From a virus, in the IMG/VR virus record IMGVR_UViG_3300035034_001387, positions 1 through 41,160 of that record: a stretch of 41,160 nt of DNA. One strand, given 5' to 3'. Each line of letters starts with the position of its first letter. Position 1 is the stretch's first letter. The notes beneath the pieces were generated by a model that was not told where the DNA came from, searched no databases, and was given only the letters and a program-made list of their open reading frames with translations. This document shows positions 9,418 to 38,857 of the stretch, piece by piece. The position numbers were made by a program, and so were the translations under genes.

Positions 9418-12400
9418 ATGGTAACAGTAACGTACCCCGTCCTCTCTCTGAGGAACATCACCATCTTCCCCACCAACATTGTGCCTCTCGCGGTGGGACG
9501 TCCCAGGTCTGTTGAACTGATCATGAACGCGGCTAATGCCACGACCTCCGAGGATGAGGTTGTGGTACTCACGCAGAGAGATCAGGGCGTGGCCGATCCC
9601 GGCGAGGGGGACCTGTACAAGACCGGAGTGGTCGTCAAGATCCTCAAGATCGTCAAGATCCCCTCGCAGGAGGGCGGTAACAGCACACTCAACGTGGTCG
9701 TGCAGGGAGTCAGGCGTGTCCGCCTCGTGAGCCTTGACCAGACCGGTAAGTTCGATACGGGTACCTTTGAGGACTTCCCCATCGGGCGTGATAACTCCCC
9801 CGAGGAGACGGCCCGGTTCCTCCACCTTCAGGGTCTGGCAGACGACATCACGTCGACGATCCCCAGCGTCCCCAAAGAGGCGAGCGCTGTTCTCAATGAC
9901 ATGACGGACCCCGAGACCCTGTGCCACTTCGTGGCAGGCAACCTTGAGGTGTCGGTCAACGAGCGTCAGGAGATTCTTGAGCAAGACAAGCTGATTGACA
10001 TGCTCACCCTGATCTCGGAAAGCCTCGCGCGTCAGATTGAGTCCGCCAAGGCCGCCGAGAAGATTCAGAAGTCCATCGCGGCAGACACCGAGAAGTCTCA
10101 GAAAGAGTATTACCTGCGTAAGCAGCTTGAGACGATCAAAAAGGAGCTTGGCGAGGAGGAAGGGCTTGAGGGTCTGATCAACCGGGTCTCCGCTCTTGAC
10201 CTCCCCCTGGAAGTCGAAGCCAAGTGCCTCAAGCAAATCGATCGTTTGCAGGGTATGCAGAAGTCGTCTTCTGAGTACAGCGTGACCCTTAACTACGTGG
10301 AGACGTTGCTTGACGTCCCGTGGAACATCACCTCAGACGATAACATGGATCTCGAAGAGGCACAGGAGATCCTTGACGCGGATCACCACGGTCTCGACAA
10401 GGTGAAGAAGCGTGTCGTCGAGTACCTTGCGGTGCGCAAGCTCAAAGACAATATGAAGGGGCCGATCCTGTGTCTGGCGGGACCCCCCGGCGTGGGTAAG
10501 GCTCAGCCTCTGGACGCGAAGGTGCTTACTCCCGAGGGCTGGAAGGTCATGGGGGCGATGGCCGTGGGGAGTCAGGTTATTGGGTCGGATGGTCTCCCGC
10601 ACAAGGTCACAGGTGTCTTCCCCCAAGGAGCGCGTGAGGTTTTCCGCGTGACCTTTAGTGATGGGTCGAGCACCGAGTGTTGTAAAGAACATCTCTGGCT
10701 CACGCAAACCGATCTCGACCGTAAAGCGAACCGGGCTGGAGAGGTTAAAAGCCTTGACGAGATCTCCAAGTCCCTTCGATACGGTACCGATCAGCGTAAA
10801 AACCACTCCATCCCTCAGGTCGCTCCCGTCGAATTCGAGAGGAAGGATCTGCCCCTGGACCCGTATGTTTTGGGCGCTCTGCTTGGCGATGGAACCCTCC
10901 TCGCCTCAGGTGGGGTCAAGTTCTCCAACGGGGACGCGGATGTGGTCGAGCGTGTCCGAACAAACCTCCCGGATGACGTCTCTCTCCTGCCAGAAGTCGG
11001 GGATAATGTCGACTATCGCATCTCCACGGGCGCCGCAGCCAAACGAGACGCCCGTGGCTGGCCTGTCAAAAACAAGATGCAGGAAGAGATCATCGCTCTG
11101 GGTCTTGCCGGATGTAAGTCCGATTCAAAGTTCGTACCGGCGAGTTACCTCCAGGGTAGCGTGGTCCAACGTCGGGACATCCTACAGGGTCTGATGGATA
11201 CGGACGGGACGGTGACCCCGAGCGGCCACCACGTTTCGTTTAGCACCACCTCGCCGCGTCTGGCAGAGGACGTCACCTTCCTCGTGAGGTCTTTGGGAGG
11301 CACCACGAGGATGACGTCCAAGAATGGTTGGTACCGTGACGCCTCGGGCGACCGTGTCGACTGTAAGACGTGTTACAGGCTTACCGTGACACTTCCTGCT
11401 ACCGTCGCACCGTTTTGGTGCTCCCGTAAAGCGTCCAAGGTGGTGACCAAGACCAAGTACGCTCCCAAGAGGTTCATCGTGGGTATCGAGCCTGCGGGGA
11501 CGAAGGAGACCCAGTGTATTCGGGTGGACGCCGAAAATCACCTGTACGTTACGGATGACTTCATCGTCACACACAACACCTCGCTGGGTAAGAGCATCGC
11601 TCGCACACTGGGTCGCAAGTTCATTCGCATCTCACTGGGTGGTGTGCATGATGAGTCGGAGATTCGTGGTCACCGCCGTACCTACGTCGGTGCGATGCCC
11701 GGACGTCTCGCCAAGGCCATGATCAAGGCGGGCACGAACAACCCCGTAATCATGCTCGACGAGATTGATAAGCTGGGTAAGGACTTCCGTGGCGACCCCC
11801 AGGCTGCTATGCTCGAAGTCCTCGACCCCGAGCAGAACAACACCTTCGCGGACCATTACATTGAGCTTCCGCTGGACCTGAGCAACGTTCTCTTCCTGGC
11901 TACGGCCAATCAGCTTGAGAACATCTCGGGTCCTCTCCGCGACCGTATGGAGATCATTCAGGTGCCTTCTTACACGTCGAGTGAGAAGCTGGAGATCGCC
12001 AAGAAGCACCTTGTGCCCAAGCAGATTGATAACCACGGCATTAGCCGTGAGAACCTTGGGTTCGAGGATGAGGCTCTTACGTACGTGATCGATAGGTACA
12101 CCCGTGAGGCGGGCGTGCGAAACCTTGAGCGACGTATCGCAGAACTGTGCAGGTCGGTCGCTGTCACGGTGGCCAACACAGAGGAAGAGGATCGTGACAC
12201 CATCAGCGTCACGTGTGACCCCGAGTACGTGTCTGAACAGCTTGGCGCCGAGAGGTACACGTCGGAGGTTGCGCAGCGCACTTCGGTAGCAGGTGTCGCT
12301 ACGGGGCTCGCCTGGACCTCGGTGGGTGGTGGTGTCCTGTTCGTGGAGTCCGCCAAGATGCCGGGTAGCGGCAAGCTCAAGCTGACGGGACAGCTTGGTG

Positions 12401-12891
12401 ATGTCATGAAAGAGTCCGCGTCGGCGGCCATGACGTTCCTGCGTTCCAACGCGGACAGGTACAATCTCAAGCGTGAGGTCTTCGAGGAGCAAGATATTCA
12501 CATTCACTTCCCCGCTGGTGCGATCCCCAAGGATGGCCCTTCGGCTGGCGTGACGATCTTCACCTCACTTCTGAGCACGCTCACTGGCGTCACGGTTCGT
12601 AAAGACGTGGCCATGACAGGTGAGATCACGCTGCGCGGTACCGTCCTGCCCGTGGGTGGTATCAAAGAGAAGCTGACCGCAGCACATCGTGCCGGGATCA
12701 AGCGCGTCCTCATCCCCGCCTTGTGCGAGAAGGATCTTCGTGACCTCCCCGATGAGGTCCGTAACGACCTTGAAATCCTCCTGATTACCAGGGCGGAAGA
12801 GGTTCCCGCTCTCGCGCTGGACGGCGAGCTTCCTGCGATCGCCGTGGTAGACGGCGAGCCTGACAGCAAGGATGAGGAAATCGTCCACTGA
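9418..12891 (+). CDS. lon: ATP-dependent protease Lon, interrupted by an intein
   Basis: A 1157-residue precursor made of a 798-residue Lon extein and a 359-residue intein. The Lon N domain begins at YPVLSLRNITIFP. The AAA+ domain has Walker A GPPGVGK-T split by the intein, Walker B VIMLDEIDK and a sensor-1 ATAN. The C-terminal protease domain has the catalytic Ser in PKDGPSAGV (precursor residue 1042) and Lys in GGIKEK (residue 1083), forming the Ser-Lys dyad. Without the intein the length is that of ordinary bacterial LonA. Lon unfolds and degrades proteins in the cytosol. A strong terminator follows the stop. A phage Lon could remove host regulators or antiviral proteins; its targets are unknown. 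Confidence 0.97.
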   Translation: MVTVTYPVLSLRNITIFPTNIVPLAVGRPRSVELIMNAANATTSEDEVVVLTQRDQGVADPGEGDLYKTGVVVKILKIVKIPSQEGGNSTLNVVVQGVRRVRLVSLDQTGKFDTGTFEDFPIGRDNSPEETARFLHLQGLADDITSTIPSVPKEASAVLNDMTDPETLCHFVAGNLEVSVNERQEILEQDKLIDMLTLISESLARQIESAKAAEKIQKSIAADTEKSQKEYYLRKQLETIKKELGEEEGLEGLINRVSALDLPLEVEAKCLKQIDRLQGMQKSSSEYSVTLNYVETLLDVPWNITSDDNMDLEEAQEILDADHHGLDKVKKRVVEYLAVRKLKDNMKGPILCLAGPPGVGKAQPLDAKVLTPEGWKVMGAMAVGSQVIGSDGLPHKVTGVFPQGAREVFRVTFSDGSSTECCKEHLWLTQTDLDRKANRAGEVKSLDEISKSLRYGTDQRKNHSIPQVAPVEFERKDLPLDPYVLGALLGDGTLLASGGVKFSNGDADVVERVRTNLPDDVSLLPEVGDNVDYRISTGAAAKRDARGWPVKNKMQEEIIALGLAGCKSDSKFVPASYLQGSVVQRRDILQGLMDTDGTVTPSGHHVSFSTTSPRLAEDVTFLVRSLGGTTRMTSKNGWYRDASGDRVDCKTCYRLTVTLPATVAPFWCSRKASKVVTKTKYAPKRFIVGIEPAGTKETQCIRVDAENHLYVTDDFIVTHNTSLGKSIARTLGRKFIRISLGGVHDESEIRGHRRTYVGAMPGRLAKAMIKAGTNNPVIMLDEIDKLGKDFRGDPQAAMLEVLDPEQNNTFADHYIELPLDLSNVLFLATANQLENISGPLRDRMEIIQVPSYTSSEKLEIAKKHLVPKQIDNHGISRENLGFEDEALTYVIDRYTREAGVRNLERRIAELCRSVAVTVANTEEEDRDTISVTCDPEYVSEQLGAERYTSEVAQRTSVAGVATGLAWTSVGGGVLFVESAKMPGSGKLKLTGQLGDVMKESASAAMTFLRSNADRYNLKREVFEEQDIHIHFPAGAIPKDGPSAGVTIFTSLLSTLTGVTVRKDVAMTGEITLRGTVLPVGGIKEKLTAAHRAGIKRVLIPALCEKDLRDLPDEVRNDLEILLITRAEEVPALALDGELPAIAVVDGEPDSKDEEIVH
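10501..11577 (+). mobile_element. Class 3 intein with LAGLIDADG homing endonuclease in lon
   Basis: This in-frame segment encodes 359 residues inserted between Lys and Thr of the Lon Walker A loop. It begins AQPLDAKVLTPEGW, with Ala in place of the usual Cys/Ser, and ends FIVTHN before a Thr +1 residue. Block B shows EHLW (H64, W66), block F shows QCIRVD (C339), and block G shows T357 before His-Asn. That is the W-C-T triad of class 3 inteins, in which the block F Cys starts splicing. Two LAGLIDADG-type motifs, VLGALLGDG near 122-130 and ILQGLMDTDG near 226-235, indicate a homing endonuclease that looks intact. Splicing would rebuild the ATP-binding loop. Confidence 0.93.
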
Positions 12892-15016: not shown

Positions 15017-15259
15017 TCAGTCAGGCTTGGCGCCGAACTCACGATCAATGTCAGTGGGTGTCAATATAGAGAGTCGCCTTAGCGTCCTCTCCGGCTGACC
15101 CTGGCAGGCTCGAAGCATACGAAGGCGGGGGTCTTCTACGTTAATGTCATTCACCTCTGCCCTCTCAAGAGCGTTCCTCTTGAGGGCGTTCCAATTGACG
15201 GCCTGCACAGGCTTACGTACGGTGGGCTTTTTGAGGTATTTGCGCATGGTTTTCTTCAT
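15017..15259 (-). CDS. Small basic hypothetical protein
   Basis: An 80-residue, strongly basic protein (MKKTMRKYLKKPTVRKPV at its start). Its ATG overlaps the stop of the preceding gene in the ATGA arrangement, so translation is probably coupled. The N-terminal Lys/Arg cluster suggests nucleic-acid contact, but no fold is recognisable. Confidence 0.68.
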   Translation of the reverse strand: MKKTMRKYLKKPTVRKPVQAVNWNALKRNALERAEVNDINVEDPRLRMLRACQGQPERTLRRLSILTPTDIDREFGAKPD

Positions 15260-15687
15260 TGGGAGACTAGCTGACCGTTCTGAATCTTGGAGACGACCTT
15301 ACCCCGGATTCCAGGGAGGATCATGCTTTGAAGTTCGGGACTGACTTTCTCAAGTGCAAGGTCCCACACCAGATCGATATACATGCCTGCCGTGACCGGG
15401 AGGGGTTGATTATTGTAGACAGTGCTCTCTGTGGACTCTGCAAGAAGCCTGCCAGACCTATCTTTAAGACGTAGCTTGAAAAAGTACACGGGGATCGTGA
15501 CGCCCACGGGCTTCACGAACTCCATAGGAAACTTGATCTGAATCCTCTTATCTCCCGCCACCACTTTAGGTGAGGAATGATAGCCCCAGCCGACGACTTC
15601 GACGTAAAGGTCTTGACCTTCAATCATCCGTTGGATAACGTCCTGTTCAGTCTCGGTCAGGGGGACATAGCTAAATTGGTGTGACAT
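15256..15687 (-). CDS. Hypothetical protein
   Basis: A 143-residue protein with a beta-sandwich feel: alternating strands around GQDLYVEVVGWGY, KRIQIKFPMEF and TIPVYFFKLRLKDRSG. AGGAG lies six bases before the ATG. The stop overlaps the start of the 15017 gene. I do not recognise the family. The strand pattern would suit a binding or structural protein. Confidence 0.7.
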   Translation of the reverse strand: MSHQFSYVPLTETEQDVIQRMIEGQDLYVEVVGWGYHSSPKVVAGDKRIQIKFPMEFVKPVGVTIPVYFFKLRLKDRSGRLLAESTESTVYNNQPLPVTAGMYIDLVWDLALEKVSPELQSMILPGIRGKVVSKIQNGQLVSQ

Positions 15688-15714: not shown

Positions 15715-16131
15715 TCAAACGAGGCGGATCTTGTAGGCACGGTCCCTCCCGTCCCTCCCGCTTCTTACTTCAAACTGAACCTTCATTCCTATCTGCACGT
15801 CTTCTGCCTTGCCTAGCCCCTCAAAATCTGTGAAGTGTGCGAATACATCGGCTTTGGCCTCTCGACCAATAAACCCAAATCCCCTGTCGGGATTGTAAAA
15901 CATCACCTCACCAACCTCTTCGGCCATCACAGGCGGGTTGACACGTTCAACTTCACGCGCCATCATACCCTTGTGCCCTTCCGCTGGAGTGAAGAGGACT
16001 TCCTCACCACCTAACAGCATGTCTCCGTTCACATCCGTGACGTGTACGAAGTAATCAGCGCCTTCAACCTCAACGAAGCCGAAGCCCCTTTGGTAATTGA
16101 AGAACTTTACATTTCCTTTAAGCTTTGACAT
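15715..16131 (-). CDS. Tandem cold-shock domain protein
   Basis: A 138-residue protein with two cold-shock (OB-fold) domains. The first has GNVKFFNYQRGFGFVEV, then YFVHVTDV. The second has GEVMFYNPDRGFGFIG, then DVFAHFTDF. Both keep the RNP1-like GFGF and RNP2-like V/F-x-H segments that bind single-stranded RNA or DNA. Single-domain Csp proteins are about 70 residues, so this is a duplication. A probable role is RNA chaperone or anti-terminator during infection. An AGG sits just before the ATG. Confidence 0.92.
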   Translation of the reverse strand: MSKLKGNVKFFNYQRGFGFVEVEGADYFVHVTDVNGDMLLGGEEVLFTPAEGHKGMMAREVERVNPPVMAEEVGEVMFYNPDRGFGFIGREAKADVFAHFTDFEGLGKAEDVQIGMKVQFEVRSGRDGRDRAYKIRLV

Positions 16132-16221
16132 TTGTACCTATCCCGCATATTTTGAAGTACCATAAGTGTGAGTTTTACTCAAAAATTGGTATCTATAAGT
16201 AAAATAGCGGTAGCTCCAATC

Positions 16222-16560
16222 TCACTCCGTAGGCTCGCCCAGACTGCTCAGGAAGACGGCAAGCGATAAAGTGGCCAGATACTCGTCCTGAAGGGCCTGT
16301 ACGCGCAATAGGGAGGCTTCTACGGCCTCCTCATCGGCAGGGTCCAGCCCCTCGAAGACGCCTTCTATTTGGGCGCGCATGAGCAAGCGGGGTGTCATCT
16401 CACTGAGTTCGTAGAGGGTCAGGATGTCTTCTTGATGCCGGGCCAACTCTCGGTCGTGTCTGGCCAGTAGAGGGCCTACCTTCTCGTTGAGGATGTTGGC
16501 TAACTCCCGAAGGCCACCAGACAAAGACTTCAAGGTTCGCTTTAAAACTTGGCTATCCAT
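16222..16560 (-). CDS. Small helical protein, last gene of the coupled operon
   Basis: A 112-residue protein, almost entirely helical by composition, with heptad-like LARHDRELARHQEDILTLYE suggesting a coiled coil. Start and preceding stop overlap as TAATG, so its translation depends on the Cys-rich gene before it. No known family is recognised. As the last member of the DUF1848/AAA+ operon it might be an adaptor or oligomerisation partner; that is inference. Confidence 0.7.
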   Translation of the reverse strand: MDSQVLKRTLKSLSGGLRELANILNEKVGPLLARHDRELARHQEDILTLYELSEMTPRLLMRAQIEGVFEGLDPADEEAVEASLLRVQALQDEYLATLSLAVFLSSLGEPTE

Positions 16561-16922
16561 TAGTCTTCCGATCCTGGGGGCGTCTTGAAGACGCCCGGTC
16601 CAATGTATTTCAGGTTATCCCTGTACGGCAGGTTCACGTTGGAGGCGAAATCTTCGTTCAGTTGCTCTTCAGTGCGAACCGTTTGAGCCGTATCCGCAAA
16701 GTCTTGGATGCGCTGGGACGGAGCCTGACAGCACCCCAAAGCCACGCAACGGGATACGTCGTCACGCGCAATTGGGGAGTTGCATATAATGGCAAACACC
16801 TCATGCTCGGGGAGGATATTCAAGAAGCACTGCCCCTGACTCACCCAATAGCAATCCGAAGGGCAATAGTTGGTCGTGTTCGTGGTCGCGACAGTCTTTT
16901 TGTCGCCGCATTCGTCACTCAT
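16560..16922 (-). CDS. Cys-rich hypothetical protein
   Basis: A 120-residue protein with eight Cys residues, at 5, 20, 24, 32, 47, 59, 64 and 65. C20-x3-C24 and the adjacent C64-C65 stand out. No signal peptide is visible, so in the reducing cytosol these Cys are more likely metal or Fe-S ligands than disulfides. AGAGG lies six bases before the ATG, and the ATG overlaps the stop of the AAA+ gene. The family is not recognised. Confidence 0.7.
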   Translation of the reverse strand: MSDECGDKKTVATTNTTNYCPSDCYWVSQGQCFLNILPEHEVFAIICNSPIARDDVSRCVALGCCQAPSQRIQDFADTAQTVRTEEQLNEDFASNVNLPYRDNLKYIGPGVFKTPPGSED

Positions 16923-18310
16923 TTGGAACCTCTCTTTTTGTAACCTGTGGAGGTTGCCTCGCCCGCCATCTTCCCGCCCATGAACAAATCGTCCTCGTCT
17001 GTGTATATGATATAGCTGTAATCCTCCTCGTCATCGTCCATATACCCAGGGTAAGACACGGGACCCGGTATCACGTTGACGTTCCAACTCTCATCAAAGG
17101 TCAGGTCCGTAGCGTCGAATTCAAGCTCATCCTCTCCCATGACAGCGACCCTGCGTAGAAGCTCTCGAATATGGGCGCCTGGAAGGTCAAGGCTTTCGGA
17201 CACCTCTAGCATCTTCACAGCGCCCTCTTCCGAGAGGGTCACGCCCTCTTGACCCGCGAGATAATGGATCACGCGCAACCTGATCTCACCCTTGGGAGGT
17301 TCAACCGCCCAAATCTCATCAAATCTGCCCGGCCTCTTGAGCGCGTCTGGCAGATTTTCGAGATGGTTGGTGGTAGCAATCAGTAGGGGTGTGTGGTTCT
17401 CAGACTCTTCAAAGAAGTTCAAGAAGAAGTTAAGATCCCTCTCTCCCATACGGTCCAAGTCGTCGACGATGAATATGTCGGGCTTGAGGGTCCCCATGAC
17501 CTCCAGTAGCGTTTGGATGGTCACTTCGGCAAGGATCTGTACTGAGATATAGCACACACGGCCTTGTATCTCTTTTGCCGCCTGTTGCGCCAGGGTTGAC
17601 TTACCCGTGCCAGGAACTCCGTGTAGAATCACGGACCGTCGGACCCCTGCGGCGTAAAACTTTTTCCAACGTGCGATCAGCCTATCACCCTGGTCACCTT
17701 CGTAGTGCCACAGGATCTCCGCTTTGGGTGAGAAGGTCAGGGTCTCCGAGGCGTCATCGTACCCGATCTCGATATGAGAGCCGTGCGGCTGCCATAAGAG
17801 GTCTCGGAACTCACTCAACAAAGCAGGTCCGTCGTCTACGTCGGACTCAGGGAGAGCCATGCAAGAGGTTCTGTCTTGCCACTCAATCCAATAGACGAAC
17901 TTTGTGGGGGCATACTCATACTTCCACAAGGATGTACCTGAGGGGTCCTCGTCATCATCAAGACAGTCCAACAGAACTCGCTTTGGGTCTAACAAGGGGA
18001 GGACAAGGCCCACGGTGTCATTGTCTATTAAATACAATCCCTCGTCGAGGATGTTTTGAAACTTGCTTTGAGCCTTGGACGTAATCATCTTGTTCGTGAT
18101 TCGAGGCATCGCATTGTCTGTCAAGATGCTTACGATACCAAAGGCATTGCTCATCGTTGCGAGTGTATTATCTTCGCGCAAGGATAAACGTAACAACATC
18201 CCAGCCTCTAGGAGGCTTTTTATAGTTGAAAACTTTGAAGTACCTGTCACCCTCCTCAACTTGTCAATGCTTTCTCTGAGCGTAGGACCCTTACCATCAA
18301 AAGGTTTCAT
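16919..18310 (-). CDS. AAA+ ATPase
   Basis: A 463-residue protein with a unique N-terminal half and a classic AAA domain after residue 220. Walker A is GVPGTGKST (231-239), Walker B is IFIVDD (about 279-284), sensor 1 is IATTN (about 311-315), and the second region of homology RPGRFDEIW supplies the arginine fingers. The layout is closest to the FtsH/Cdc48/BCS1 clade. A C-terminal acidic stretch ends in a basic tail. The start at 18310 has GGAGG four bases upstream and overlaps the DUF1848 stop; the open extension upstream runs into that gene. It probably remodels or unfolds a protein partner, perhaps within this operon. Confidence 0.9.
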   Translation of the reverse strand: MKPFDGKGPTLRESIDKLRRVTGTSKFSTIKSLLEAGMLLRLSLREDNTLATMSNAFGIVSILTDNAMPRITNKMITSKAQSKFQNILDEGLYLIDNDTVGLVLPLLDPKRVLLDCLDDDEDPSGTSLWKYEYAPTKFVYWIEWQDRTSCMALPESDVDDGPALLSEFRDLLWQPHGSHIEIGYDDASETLTFSPKAEILWHYEGDQGDRLIARWKKFYAAGVRRSVILHGVPGTGKSTLAQQAAKEIQGRVCYISVQILAEVTIQTLLEVMGTLKPDIFIVDDLDRMGERDLNFFLNFFEESENHTPLLIATTNHLENLPDALKRPGRFDEIWAVEPPKGEIRLRVIHYLAGQEGVTLSEEGAVKMLEVSESLDLPGAHIRELLRRVAVMGEDELEFDATDLTFDESWNVNVIPGPVSYPGYMDDDEEDYSYIIYTDEDDLFMGGKMAGEATSTGYKKRGSK

Positions 18311-19098
18311 CTTTCCTCCAGTCCCCGTGTATACGGAGCGTAACAATAGGAGCATCTGGAGCCACACCCGAACTTGGGTCCGAGACATGGGTCCACGCTC
18401 ATTAAACACGCGCATTCAGCTTCTTTCTTCACGACATTCGAGATTCCGTACAAATTAGCCAGATAAGGACCGTCCAGACATTGAGATTGCCGGTAGGTCT
18501 CAGTAGACATCAATTCAGCGTCCTTTCCACATAAGCCTACCTTAGGTCCCGACTGAAGAATTGAACTCAAGATGTCCTGACGTGTTCCCCCCTGATAAGG
18601 GAGGTTCACATCATGTAACAGGGACACGTCCAGTAACAACTCCAACTCTTCAACCACCTCACATAACCTGTACCATTTCTCTTCCCTAACAGGGTTCACA
18701 AAGAGATCCGTAGGGACAGGTGAAAACCGTACCCTGACGGAGGACGCGCCTACCAACGCCACAAGGTCCTGTAGACCTGCTAGTTGAGCCTCAAAGCCTG
18801 GAGCACCCGGTTCCTCTTCGTCCCAACACGTGATTGTCACCGCTGTGAAGACTCGATAGGGAGTTAGCCAGGACATCAAAGGGGTAAGTAGTGCCGAAGG
18901 GTTCTTGGTCCAGAAAAACAGGCTGTGGACCTCTTCAGGATGTAAGCTCCACTTCTTGAATAAGCCGTCTTCGGGGTCAGGTGCAAAGACAAAACCCTGG
19001 CGCGTGATAAGGTCACAAAGCCAGGGTTTATACCAATGCGCAACATCGGTCCAACGGGAGAGCGATAAGGGCAGTCCTCGTTGTAGCAGGTTTTCCAT
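18307..19098 (-). CDS. DUF1848 protein with radical-SAM-like Cys cluster
   Basis: A 263-residue member of the DUF1848 family. The N-terminus has SLSRWTDVAHWY and the middle has HSLFFWTKNPSALL, both family hallmarks. The C-terminus carries C229, C231 and C238, then C245-x3-C249-x2-C252 (CGSRCSYC), a CX3CX2C pattern like the [4Fe-4S] site of radical SAM enzymes but at the opposite end of the protein. The family function is not established. A cluster-dependent enzyme is likely, and the phage Nfu-like scaffold could supply the cluster (inference). The start overlaps the stop of the small membrane protein (TAATG), and its stop overlaps the AAA+ start (ATGA). Confidence 0.85.
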   Translation of the reverse strand: MENLLQRGLPLSLSRWTDVAHWYKPWLCDLITRQGFVFAPDPEDGLFKKWSLHPEEVHSLFFWTKNPSALLTPLMSWLTPYRVFTAVTITCWDEEEPGAPGFEAQLAGLQDLVALVGASSVRVRFSPVPTDLFVNPVREEKWYRLCEVVEELELLLDVSLLHDVNLPYQGGTRQDILSSILQSGPKVGLCGKDAELMSTETYRQSQCLDGPYLANLYGISNVVKKEAECACLMSVDPCLGPKFGCGSRCSYCYAPYTRGLEER

Positions 19099-19241
19099 TA
19101 CTTCTCTTCGCGATTAGCCTTGAGTCGTTTTAGCCACAGAGTTAACATGAAATAGAGACGTATCCCTATCAGTGCTCCTACAACAATAGCCATAGCGATA
19201 AAAATCATTATCCCTATCCAATTCGATACGGTCAATACCAT
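19098..19241 (-). CDS. Single-pass small membrane protein (47 aa)
   Basis: A short gene of 47 codons. It starts MVLTVSNWIGIMIFIAM, continues as one long hydrophobic helix of about 25-30 residues, and ends in a basic tail (KRLKANREEK). That predicts one transmembrane segment with the C-terminus in the cytosol. GAGGA lies five bases before the ATG, and the stop overlaps the DUF1848 start as TAATG. Position and ribosome site argue that it is real. It might anchor the operon products at the membrane. Confidence 0.72.
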   Translation of the reverse strand: MVLTVSNWIGIMIFIAMAIVVGALIGIRLYFMLTLWLKRLKANREEK

Positions 19242-19252
19242 GAGATTCCTCT

Positions 19253-20164
19253 TTAGTAAGATTTAGGCGCTCTTCGCTTGCTTCTAGGTGAATTCTTGGT
19301 ACGCTTGCGGTACCTCTTGGCTTTGGTCTTTGCAGGTCCCTTCTTACGTTCCCTGCGTTGATTGCGGTTTTTACGACGGCGCGCCGCAGGATTTTGCCTC
19401 TCCCTTTTACGGCGATTCCTGTAGTCCTGGGACTTCGACCGGGGGGTCTTCTTACGCAACCCTTCCACGACCTCATCGTCATCGTGGTCCCCTGCCTCTC
19501 TAGCGTCGTCCTCATACCAGTTCGAGGCTTCGTACCCGTTGGATTCCGCCGATTCTTCGGCTGCACCCTCATCATACCACGACGCCTTTTTAGTCTCGCA
19601 CCCGCAGTTGCCTTCGCCGCCGCATTTACAGTCGTCGCCACAGTGACACTCACCGTCGCTGCACGCATCGGCCAGCATATCAGCTAGCTTCATAATCTCA
19701 GTTGAAAAATTCATAAGGGCTCCAGAGGTTACAGAAGAGAACAGGGCGCGTCCTACTGGGACCGACTCGGCTATCCACTGGCCTGTTGCGTTGCGAGTAA
19801 AGGTCGTGGTATCGACCAGATCAGGAAAGTTGTCCGTGGGCATCTCATTGTATTCATAGCTGGTCACGGGGAACCGCTTCTTTGCTATCTCCCACGCTTC
19901 TTTTTTCATAACCTTCTTGAAGTCATAGAAGACGTCTTCGGGTACGTACAGGCGGACCGTGTTTTTATCTGCCCGGTATTCGAGCATTGCGGTCGCTCCT
20001 ACAGCTTCCCAGTTGGGCATGTACAGGAAATCCCGATTGAGAGGCCCCAAATAGGCCGTCTCATCGTCCGCAGCGTCTTGCGGGTACTGGTCAATACCTA
20101 CAAGATGAACCTCGGCGTTAATGACGAGGAAGCGTAGGTAGGTGCCTTTGTCGAGATAGAACAC
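19253..20164 (-). CDS. Protein with metallothionein-like Cys cluster and Arg/Lys-rich tail
   Basis: A 303-residue protein in three parts. Residues 1-165 are an alpha/beta domain of unknown family. Residues 168-189 hold seven Cys and one His (C168, C173, H174, C175, C179, C181, C187, C189) in CxC spacing, like a metallothionein. An acidic stretch follows, then residues 235-303 are extremely Arg/Lys-rich, like a nucleic-acid-binding tail. The start is GTG with GAGG six bases upstream. It is the first gene of the six-gene operon. Metal binding and nucleic-acid binding are inferred from composition only. Confidence 0.72.
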   Translation of the reverse strand: MFYLDKGTYLRFLVINAEVHLVGIDQYPQDAADDETAYLGPLNRDFLYMPNWEAVGATAMLEYRADKNTVRLYVPEDVFYDFKKVMKKEAWEIAKKRFPVTSYEYNEMPTDNFPDLVDTTTFTRNATGQWIAESVPVGRALFSSVTSGALMNFSTEIMKLADMLADACSDGECHCGDDCKCGGEGNCGCETKKASWYDEGAAEESAESNGYEASNWYEDDAREAGDHDDDEVVEGLRKKTPRSKSQDYRNRRKRERQNPAARRRKNRNQRRERKKGPAKTKAKRYRKRTKNSPRSKRRAPKSY

Positions 20165-20223
20165 GTAGAGCCTCGGTGTAGAATGTCTTACGCTGGCGCG
20201 ATCTAAAGGTAAAATAACGAGAA

Positions 20224-37750: not shown

Positions 37751-38857
37751 TTACTCGTCCACGTACTCCTGCATAGCCTGAATCAGAAGCCCTTGAGCAA
37801 CTGCCGTCATGGGGTCGTCTGCGTGGCGGATCTCGCTCACCTCAATGGGGAAGCGCTTCCTCTTCTTCTCGAAGACCTCCGTGAACAGTTCAAGGAAGCC
37901 GTTAGCAAGGGACGTGCCGCCCGAGATCACGATAGGGATCGCTTCTTTGAGTTCAACGTTACCCTTGGAGGATTTGAACTTCTTGGCGATCTTGTCAATC
38001 GCGTAAGAGATCAGGACGCGGTAATAGGTCACCAGAGCCTCACGCTCACGCTGGTGCTTCTCGGGACCTTCAGAGGGGTCCATGAGGTTGATCCCGCCCT
38101 CTTTGATCATGCACATCTTGGAAGAGGTGGCGCCAACAGCTTGTGCTGAAGACCCATCAATCCAATCGCCTCCACGCTGCACCGAGAACTCAAGGTCCTC
38201 GATAGAGATTGTCTTGTAAGACATGGCCACGTTGGTCATCCCTGAACCAAAGCTAATGCCAATGCCCGAGAACATCGTGTCTGCGCACTCCGCGTAAATA
38301 ATCGCCAGGGCTTCGTTGCCCGACACGGCGTCATACCCAAGGTCTCCCAGGATACGCTCGAACACAGCCTCGTGGTAAAGTACATCCTGTTCGGGATTGT
38401 CCAGAGGCGCGGCAGGGATTGAGAAGTAACACACCTCGCCATCTTCAAGGGGTGGGCCGACCACGTTCTCGATAAGGATCGCCAAGACCTCCATAGCGTC
38501 AATCTCAGAACTGGAGATGATCCCCTTCGACAGAGGACGCCGAACCTCCTTACCGAAGATGTTCGCCGTCTCAATGGCCATATCGCCCAGAATCAACAGA
38601 CGGTCCTCTTGCTCAATGTAAGATACGTCCGCCGCCATCTTGAGCATCTTCTTGGCGTCAGGGTCAAGGTCAAGGAAGCAATCCCTCTGCCTCTTGGTAT
38701 GGACCTTGCTACCTACCTTTCGGGCTGACACAAGGTTCATGGTGCCCACGTCCAGTCCCACACCCAACTCGGGCTCTACCGGAGTCTTCTTACGGCGAAC
38801 AGCCTTCTTGGTAGGGGTCTTCGTCTCTTCGTCTTCTTTTACAGTATCGTCGCTCAT
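37751..38857 (-). CDS. Actin/Hsp70-superfamily ATPase (ParM/MreB-like)
   Basis: A 368-residue protein with the actin-fold nucleotide site: phosphate-1 GVGLDVGTMNLVSA (32-45, D36), connect-1 near GNEALAIIYAE, phosphate-2 GIGISFGSGMTNVAM, and the adenosine motif IVISGGTSLANGF near the C-terminus. A charged 30-residue N-terminal tail precedes the fold. ParM, MreB and phage actins form filaments that move or position DNA and capsids. It lies in a virion block, so a role in virion positioning or assembly is possible. Which clade it belongs to cannot be settled by eye. Confidence 0.85.
   Translation of the reverse strand: MSDDTVKEDEETKTPTKKAVRRKKTPVEPELGVGLDVGTMNLVSARKVGSKVHTKRQRDCFLDLDPDAKKMLKMAADVSYIEQEDRLLILGDMAIETANIFGKEVRRPLSKGIISSSEIDAMEVLAILIENVVGPPLEDGEVCYFSIPAAPLDNPEQDVLYHEAVFERILGDLGYDAVSGNEALAIIYAECADTMFSGIGISFGSGMTNVAMSYKTISIEDLEFSVQRGGDWIDGSSAQAVGATSSKMCMIKEGGINLMDPSEGPEKHQREREALVTYYRVLISYAIDKIAKKFKSSKGNVELKEAIPIVISGGTSLANGFLELFTEVFEKKRKRFPIEVSEIRHADDPMTAVAQGLLIQAMQEYVDE

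Follow-up and report, generated by a model that had tools for sequence, protein, structure and literature searches.

DUF1848 (PF08902) is a protein family without known function, and it is not named in the literature searched. Pfam's own note on the family already likens its C-terminal cysteines to radical SAM (S-adenosylmethionine) enzymes, and the solved proteins that rank highest against the predicted fold of the member studied here, NifB and spore photoproduct lyase (SPL), belong to this class. The family also appears in the PADLOC defence collection, as the model RTasDUF1848. Here we compare these systems with a DUF1848 gene, gene C, in a run of six genes (A to F) on a 41,160-bp virus fragment from IMG/VR (record IMGVR_UViG_3300035034_001387); "the window" below means the whole of this stretch. 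An earlier note on this DNA had proposed that the six genes form an undescribed system. A conserved phage module built on DUF1848 does exist, but the six-gene set is not that unit: it belongs to the window's own lineage. What is conserved is C-E-(F)-G, whose last member lies beyond the region the note had marked out. Our tentative reading, which we place somewhat below an even chance, makes C a circularly permuted enzyme of the radical-SAM class, working on DNA together with small metal-binding partners. The cassette members in the window are:

18307..19098, minus strand: gene C, DUF1848, 263 amino acids, PF08902 E-value 6.9e-27
16560..16922, minus strand: gene E, 120 amino acids with 8 cysteines, a weak member of the cassette's Cys-rich family
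16222..16560, minus strand: gene F, 112 amino acids, helical, counterpart of a coiled-coil protein by gene order only
15017..15259, minus strand: gene G, 80 amino acids, final cassette member, family profile E-value 4.9e-16

Single-protein scans of IMG/VR with C or with D found no relative, unlike a profile from the DUF1848 protein alignment, which recovered 29 viral loci; more records came from scans with E and G. The cassette, with its genes on the same strand and tightly packed in the order DUF1848 (C), S, E family, F family, G family, is found in 12 huge-phage records of 93-417 kb. L026 and L029 are near-duplicates (L numbers are our labels for records and loci), which leaves 11 distinct records. 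The records are:

L017, 411 kb; L018, 107 kb; L019, 416 kb; L020, 116 kb; L025, 208 kb
L058, 148 kb; L059, 309 kb; L064, 252 kb; L067, 93 kb; L068, 203 kb
L026 and L029, the near-identical pair

C, E and G co-occur in 12/12 of these records, E and G with one copy each. They stay within ~3 kb of each other across the cassette phages despite an identity of C of only ~45-63% to the L059 copy and ~30% to the window's C. Insertions divide the block without scattering its members, and E and G are both missing from the phages LR745208, LR756511 and LR756501. This pattern argues against the possibility that the run is a dense packing of unrelated small genes around an acquired DUF1848, held together by the large-block synteny of huge phages. 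We consider that possibility unlikely, even if it would suit several features of the window: gene overlaps are common there, A, B and D are not found in relatives, F has no sequence support, and two genes stand between G and the rest. General synteny would also give the retention downstream of a YkgJ-type gene and others.

In the relatives, S fills the slot between DUF1848 and E, accompanied by an ADP-ribosylglycohydrolase gene in L064 and by a small gene in L068; in the window the AAA+ gene D stands there, without S. Set against the cassette definition, the window has a clear C and G, a weak E, an F by position only, and an S that is absent or replaced by D.

Some further observations were made at these loci. 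In 12/12 cassette records a metal-chelating protein of the YkgJ type (CxxCxxCC, PF03692) is encoded ~2-5 kb downstream of DUF1848; none turned up in the window. A conserved GGTGTA stands ~4-10 nucleotides before the DUF1848 start codon in L017, L019, L020, L025, L026, L058, L059, L064 and L067, and large proteins that repeat a peptide like 'SRFEEGKPADPTKNMSPEDAKKWREMNEEHKDEFK' are encoded upstream of DUF1848 in L017, L019, L020 and L025.

Gene C itself fits the whole DUF1848 profile (positions 2-262 of 262, at 95.3 bits against a gathering cut-off of 30.5) and retains the C-terminal Cys motif. It differs from DUF1848 at large in belonging to a divergent phage clade, with 'SLSRWTD' replacing 'SxSRRxDIP' and with fixed partner genes; in the tree the window's C falls within the cassette-phage clade with support of 100/99. 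Seven cysteines are invariant in an alignment of 22 phage DUF1848 proteins (190, 207, 229, 231, 245, 249 and 252), and the last three of these make up a CX3CX2C motif at the C-terminus (245-252). A MiaB-like stretch, CSYCYAPYTRG, occurs in the window sequence alone and was left out of account.

The canonical radical-SAM family PF04055, whose motif comes before the barrel, was unmatched by gene C, whose motif is C-terminal, and a PDB sequence search gave no detectable similarity between C and SPL. Judged by motif order, C could be a permuted relative of radical SAM at most. An AlphaFold model of C built from 22 sequences (predicted local distance difference test, pLDDT, 79; predicted template modelling score 0.81) was aligned to 999 chains with VIA-align, and the ten best were all radical-SAM enzymes. 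NifB (Z 8.1, root-mean-square deviation 3.6, 162 residues aligned) and SPL (Z 7.7, ~165 residues) head the ranking, and TsrM (Z 7.0) and MiaB (Z 6.5) are among those that come after them. Foldseek alone returned generic TIM barrels with low TM-scores. Residues 1-189/193 of the model align to NifB 70-258 and SPL 120-341. NifB and SPL carry their own CX3CX2C near the N-terminus, before the stretch aligned to C, so the alignment begins past that motif, as a circular permutation predicts. This structural register, as seen in the model, is what the present analysis adds, and motif and model together suggest the radical-SAM class for C.

The likeness to SPL lies in the CX3CX2C motif, in the structural alignment of the model and in the DNA-repair genes that adjoin the bacterial relatives of C, whereas the motif of C sits at the opposite end of the chain and C has extra invariant cysteines. 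NifB is the best structural match and, like C, has cysteines beyond those of the SAM cluster, but C lacks a nitrogenase context and its motif order is permuted.

The partners of C are small. S has ~90 amino acids and usually a CxxC. The E family averages ~130 amino acids, is Cys-rich and has a conserved helical core; its N-terminal Cys pattern varies, and its C-terminal tail is fixed (IPFYxxFRGQPPFAQ). A fold search with the E family gave no match, which is uninformative on novelty. The window's E matches the family profile weakly (E-value 0.031), although best among all window open reading frames (ORFs), and compares with the family by hhalign at P 2.6e-4 and an HH probability of 42%; it holds the same place in the gene order as the E family of the relatives. 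In those relatives the F family is a basic coiled-coil protein that begins MNRxxRR, and the window's F was rejected as a sequence homolog, having no sequence support. The G family (~80 amino acids, present in 12/12 cassette records) frequently overlaps F. In the window two genes separate them, one for a cold-shock protein at 15715-16131 and another at 15256-15687.

Might C act on E? The genes for the radical-SAM-like C and the small, Cys-rich E are always near each other here, and E comes only with the cassette, in one copy in each of 12 records, a search of 84,980 bacterial and archaeal genomes having found none. This would suit the modification of a protein or peptide. C would then act on E as other radical-SAM enzymes act on the Cys-rich precursors of ribosomally synthesized and post-translationally modified peptides, or serve as its maturase, and D, the AAA+ protein whose core is closest to YjoB, would remodel the product or release it. 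At ~130 amino acids and with its helical core E resembles a partner and not a precursor peptide, bacterial DUF1848 occurs without E, the cassette includes neither a transporter nor a protease, and D is absent from the relatives. We therefore regard peptide modification as quite improbable.

Our preferred reading, of C as a permuted radical-SAM enzyme acting on DNA, draws its substrate from the bacterial relatives. The cassette-type C alignment was used to fetch 57 bacterial loci, and a Pfam census was made of 100 ORFs neighbouring bacterial DUF1848, with 100 ORFs lying 2.5-3.9 kb away on the same contigs as a control. Many of the bacterial carriers are anaerobes (Clostridia, Negativicutes, sulphate reducers and Chlorobia), as oxygen-sensitive radical-SAM enzymes would suggest. 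In the surroundings of 52 bacterial DUF1848 genes we find Ada and Ogt together at L133 and L099, AlkA-type HhH-GPD glycosylases at L123 and L125, a uracil-glycosylase-superfamily gene at L108 and Y-family polymerases at L088, L129, L140, L141 and L005, and Cdd1 adjoins DUF1848 in Chlorobia. Among the first 25 families listed for the control ORFs, none of these families is present with at least two members. With the predicted fold's likeness to SPL, this neighbourhood suggests by analogy that DNA is the substrate of C, and the phage branch may share the role of its bacterial relatives.

A number of points weigh against this reading. In the model of C the last 20 residues, which bear CX3CX2C, have pLDDT below 50; a Z of ~8 is borderline on the tool's own calibration, with ~160 of the 263 residues of C aligned; and the window's C sits on a long branch (2.5). 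The repair neighbours are those of bacterial DUF1848, and those bacterial sequences that were included in the tree fall outside the phage cassette clade. As the control is given by its first 25 families only, single repair genes there would go unseen, and since several of the repair matches come from related taxa, the associations amount to ~6 independent ones. Two phage records were read more widely; the nearby genes are replication and metabolic ones, and no repair gene was recognised within the cassette. Finally, there are loci, albeit fewer, that tie DUF1848 to ADP-ribose/NAD enzymes.

The last of these links is recurrent. The gene order in Selenomonas is Macro, DUF1848, Sir2, an ADP-ribosylglycohydrolase gene is close to DUF1848 in Anaerovibrio and lies between DUF1848 and S in the phage L064, the phage L040 has a KptA/Tpt1 RNA 2'-phosphotransferase gene close by, and L025, L026 and L068 have Macro-domain genes ~5-6 kb downstream. 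DUF1848 could accordingly belong to pathways that reverse or process ADP-ribosylation or RNA ends, possibly as counter-defence, and the PADLOC model RTasDUF1848, for defence-associated reverse transcriptases (DRT), matches C at 8.9e-15. However, such partners change from locus to locus and repair neighbours are found at more loci. The PADLOC link is an association and not a tested function; C belongs to the same protein family, but a Pfam scan of window ORFs (the operon and the larger ORFs) found no reverse transcriptase, adjacent or otherwise. Of all the readings considered here we find this one the least probable. A defence-system reading from PADLOC was rejected, as it matched only DUF1848 itself, generic AAA models at a weak level and, with E, a CRISPR-associated model, again weakly (E-value 0.0019).

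The positions of some of these and other DUF1848 pairs may be of use. DUF1848 is near KptA at L040 4763-6837, near ADP-ribosylglycohydrolase at L064 5860-8351 and L118 3649-6828, and near Macro and Sir2 at L093 5490-7737. In some gut bacterial and viral contigs a SAM-methyltransferase-like protein of ~284 amino acids, with no Pfam match, is encoded directly before DUF1848 (L003 10205-11860, L002 426-2569, L021-L023 and L031).

The remaining genes of the run, and the motifs that flank it, are features of the window phage:

20201..20216, minus strand: promoter-like motif copy 1 (TATTTTACCTTTAGAT), 37 nucleotides upstream of gene A, putative function
19253..20164, minus strand: gene A, 303 amino acids, GTG start, Cys cluster and basic tail
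19098..19241, minus strand: gene B, 47 amino acids, one predicted membrane helix
16919..18310, minus strand: gene D, 463 amino acids, classical AAA ATPase, PF00004 E-value 1.3e-18
16191..16206, minus strand: promoter-like motif copy 2 (TATTTTACTTATAGAT), 15 nucleotides past F and before the cold-shock gene

The N-terminal ~165 amino acids of A have no recognised fold. They are followed by a cluster of seven cysteines at residues 168-189 (CHCGDDCKCGGEGNCGC) and by a Lys/Arg-rich tail (35 of the 83 C-terminal residues). A tblastn search of phages with A gave no match, and a similarity search of the cassette records, which had no positive control for A, did not find it. No B stands beside DUF1848 in the cassette records, and this adjacency is the one ground on which B, of 47 amino acids, was judged. 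A, B, E and F have no significant family match in Pfam, PHROG or NCBIfam. D carries Walker A (GVPGTGKS from 231, at 231-238), Walker B (IFIVDDLD from 279, at 279-286) and sensor 1 with the second region of homology (309-334, with ATTN within 309-316 and LKRPGRFD within 323-334), and so is a classical AAA ATPase. Its nearest solved protein is YjoB, an AAA+ ATPase of B. subtilis (PDB 7w42; E-value 1.2e-16), and the two align at the matching position of the chain (D 218-366 to YjoB 216-364). The alignment is confined to the ATPase core, and the operon partners of D are not those of YjoB. No homologs of the N-terminal ~217 amino acids of D were detected, and a direct search of the cassette records did not find D. 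With A and D not found in those records, the six-gene unit is lineage-local.

A to F lie on the minus strand throughout, from 20164 to 16222. A gap of 11 nucleotides separates A from B, and the other junctions are TAATG (B/C), ATGA (C/D), ATGA (D/E) and TAATG (E/F). All of these, along with the ORF positions, agree with the earlier note, whose domain calls (DUF1848 for C, E-value 6.9e-27; AAA for D, E-value 1.3e-18) also hold, and the conserved module is indeed centred on a likely Fe-S enzyme. Where it went too far is in taking the coupling to imply fixed stoichiometry. Overlaps of 1 or 4 nucleotides occur at 8 of the 42 same-strand neighbour pairs in the window, four of them within A to F, so that coupling is enriched in this run but is not special for the window, and overlap alone is no proof of fixed stoichiometry or of a complex. 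The note had also named the occurrence of the genes apart in related phages as evidence against a single six-gene system, and this is what we see for A, B and D, which are not found in the cassette records of the relatives.

A 16-base, AT-rich, promoter-like motif, TATTTTACNTNTAGAT, defined from its own two window copies, has exactly two exact copies in the window and no copy in the other loci fetched. One is just before A and the other just after F, which fits A to F as one putative transcription unit, with a second unit perhaps beginning at the cold-shock gene.

Among the genes of the window are those for GyrB, an intein-split Lon protease, a GroEL-like chaperonin, volactin, a sigma factor, proteins like NifU and ferritin, and tRNAs, and the stretch therefore comes from a huge phage of a bacterium. 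A DNA-level search of GenBank phages with the window found no close relative. Volactin is also encoded in 8/12 cassette records (some of which are fragments), in LR745208 (56% identity) and in LR756511, and these phages therefore appear to form a recognisable lineage. Some candidate relatives were rejected. LR745208 has the closest volactin, but none of C, E, F and G is present in it. A distinct DUF1848 clade, without E, F or G, is carried by AT-rich huge phages such as LR756501. The MT83xxxx 'phage' records matched by C bear ordinary cellular genes and are probably gut bacterial contigs and not phage.

The volactin gene (PF25216, an archaeal-type actin; 37751-38857, minus strand) may mark a huge-phage lineage. 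The Lon protease (1157 amino acids; 9418-12891, plus strand) has its intein inside Walker A (GPPGVGK / TSLGKS), with a LAGLIDADG homing-endonuclease domain and apparently Ala as the first residue.

If C is a permuted radical-SAM enzyme of the kind we favour, it would have a partial TIM-like barrel, with the SAM-cleaving [4Fe-4S] motif CX3CX2C moved from the N- to the C-terminus, and its four other invariant cysteines might bind a metal or a further cluster. Huge phages would encode it with the fixed small partners S, E, F and G, several of them Cys-rich. C would perform radical chemistry on DNA, either the direct reversal of a base lesion, as SPL does, or the formation of a modified base in the phage's own DNA. 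The Cys-rich partners, whose roles are guesses, might provide the metal centre or shield it, or else present the substrate to C. In the phage of the window, A, B and the AAA+ remodeller D would join the cassette set in one operon as additions of that lineage, A with its Cys cluster and a putative tail for binding nucleic acid.

A broader proposal, possible but doubtful in our view, is that DUF1848 is an unrecognised, permuted radical-SAM family for DNA repair or modification, common across bacteria and encoded there beside Ada/Ogt, AlkA-type glycosylase and translesion-polymerase genes, of which one lineage of actin-bearing huge phages has built a dedicated multi-protein version. A large family without a function would thereby gain a testable chemistry and a pathway, and the cassette itself is a marker for a huge-phage lineage. 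If the proposal is true, there would be a second radical-SAM route of lesion reversal beside SPL, in many anaerobes.

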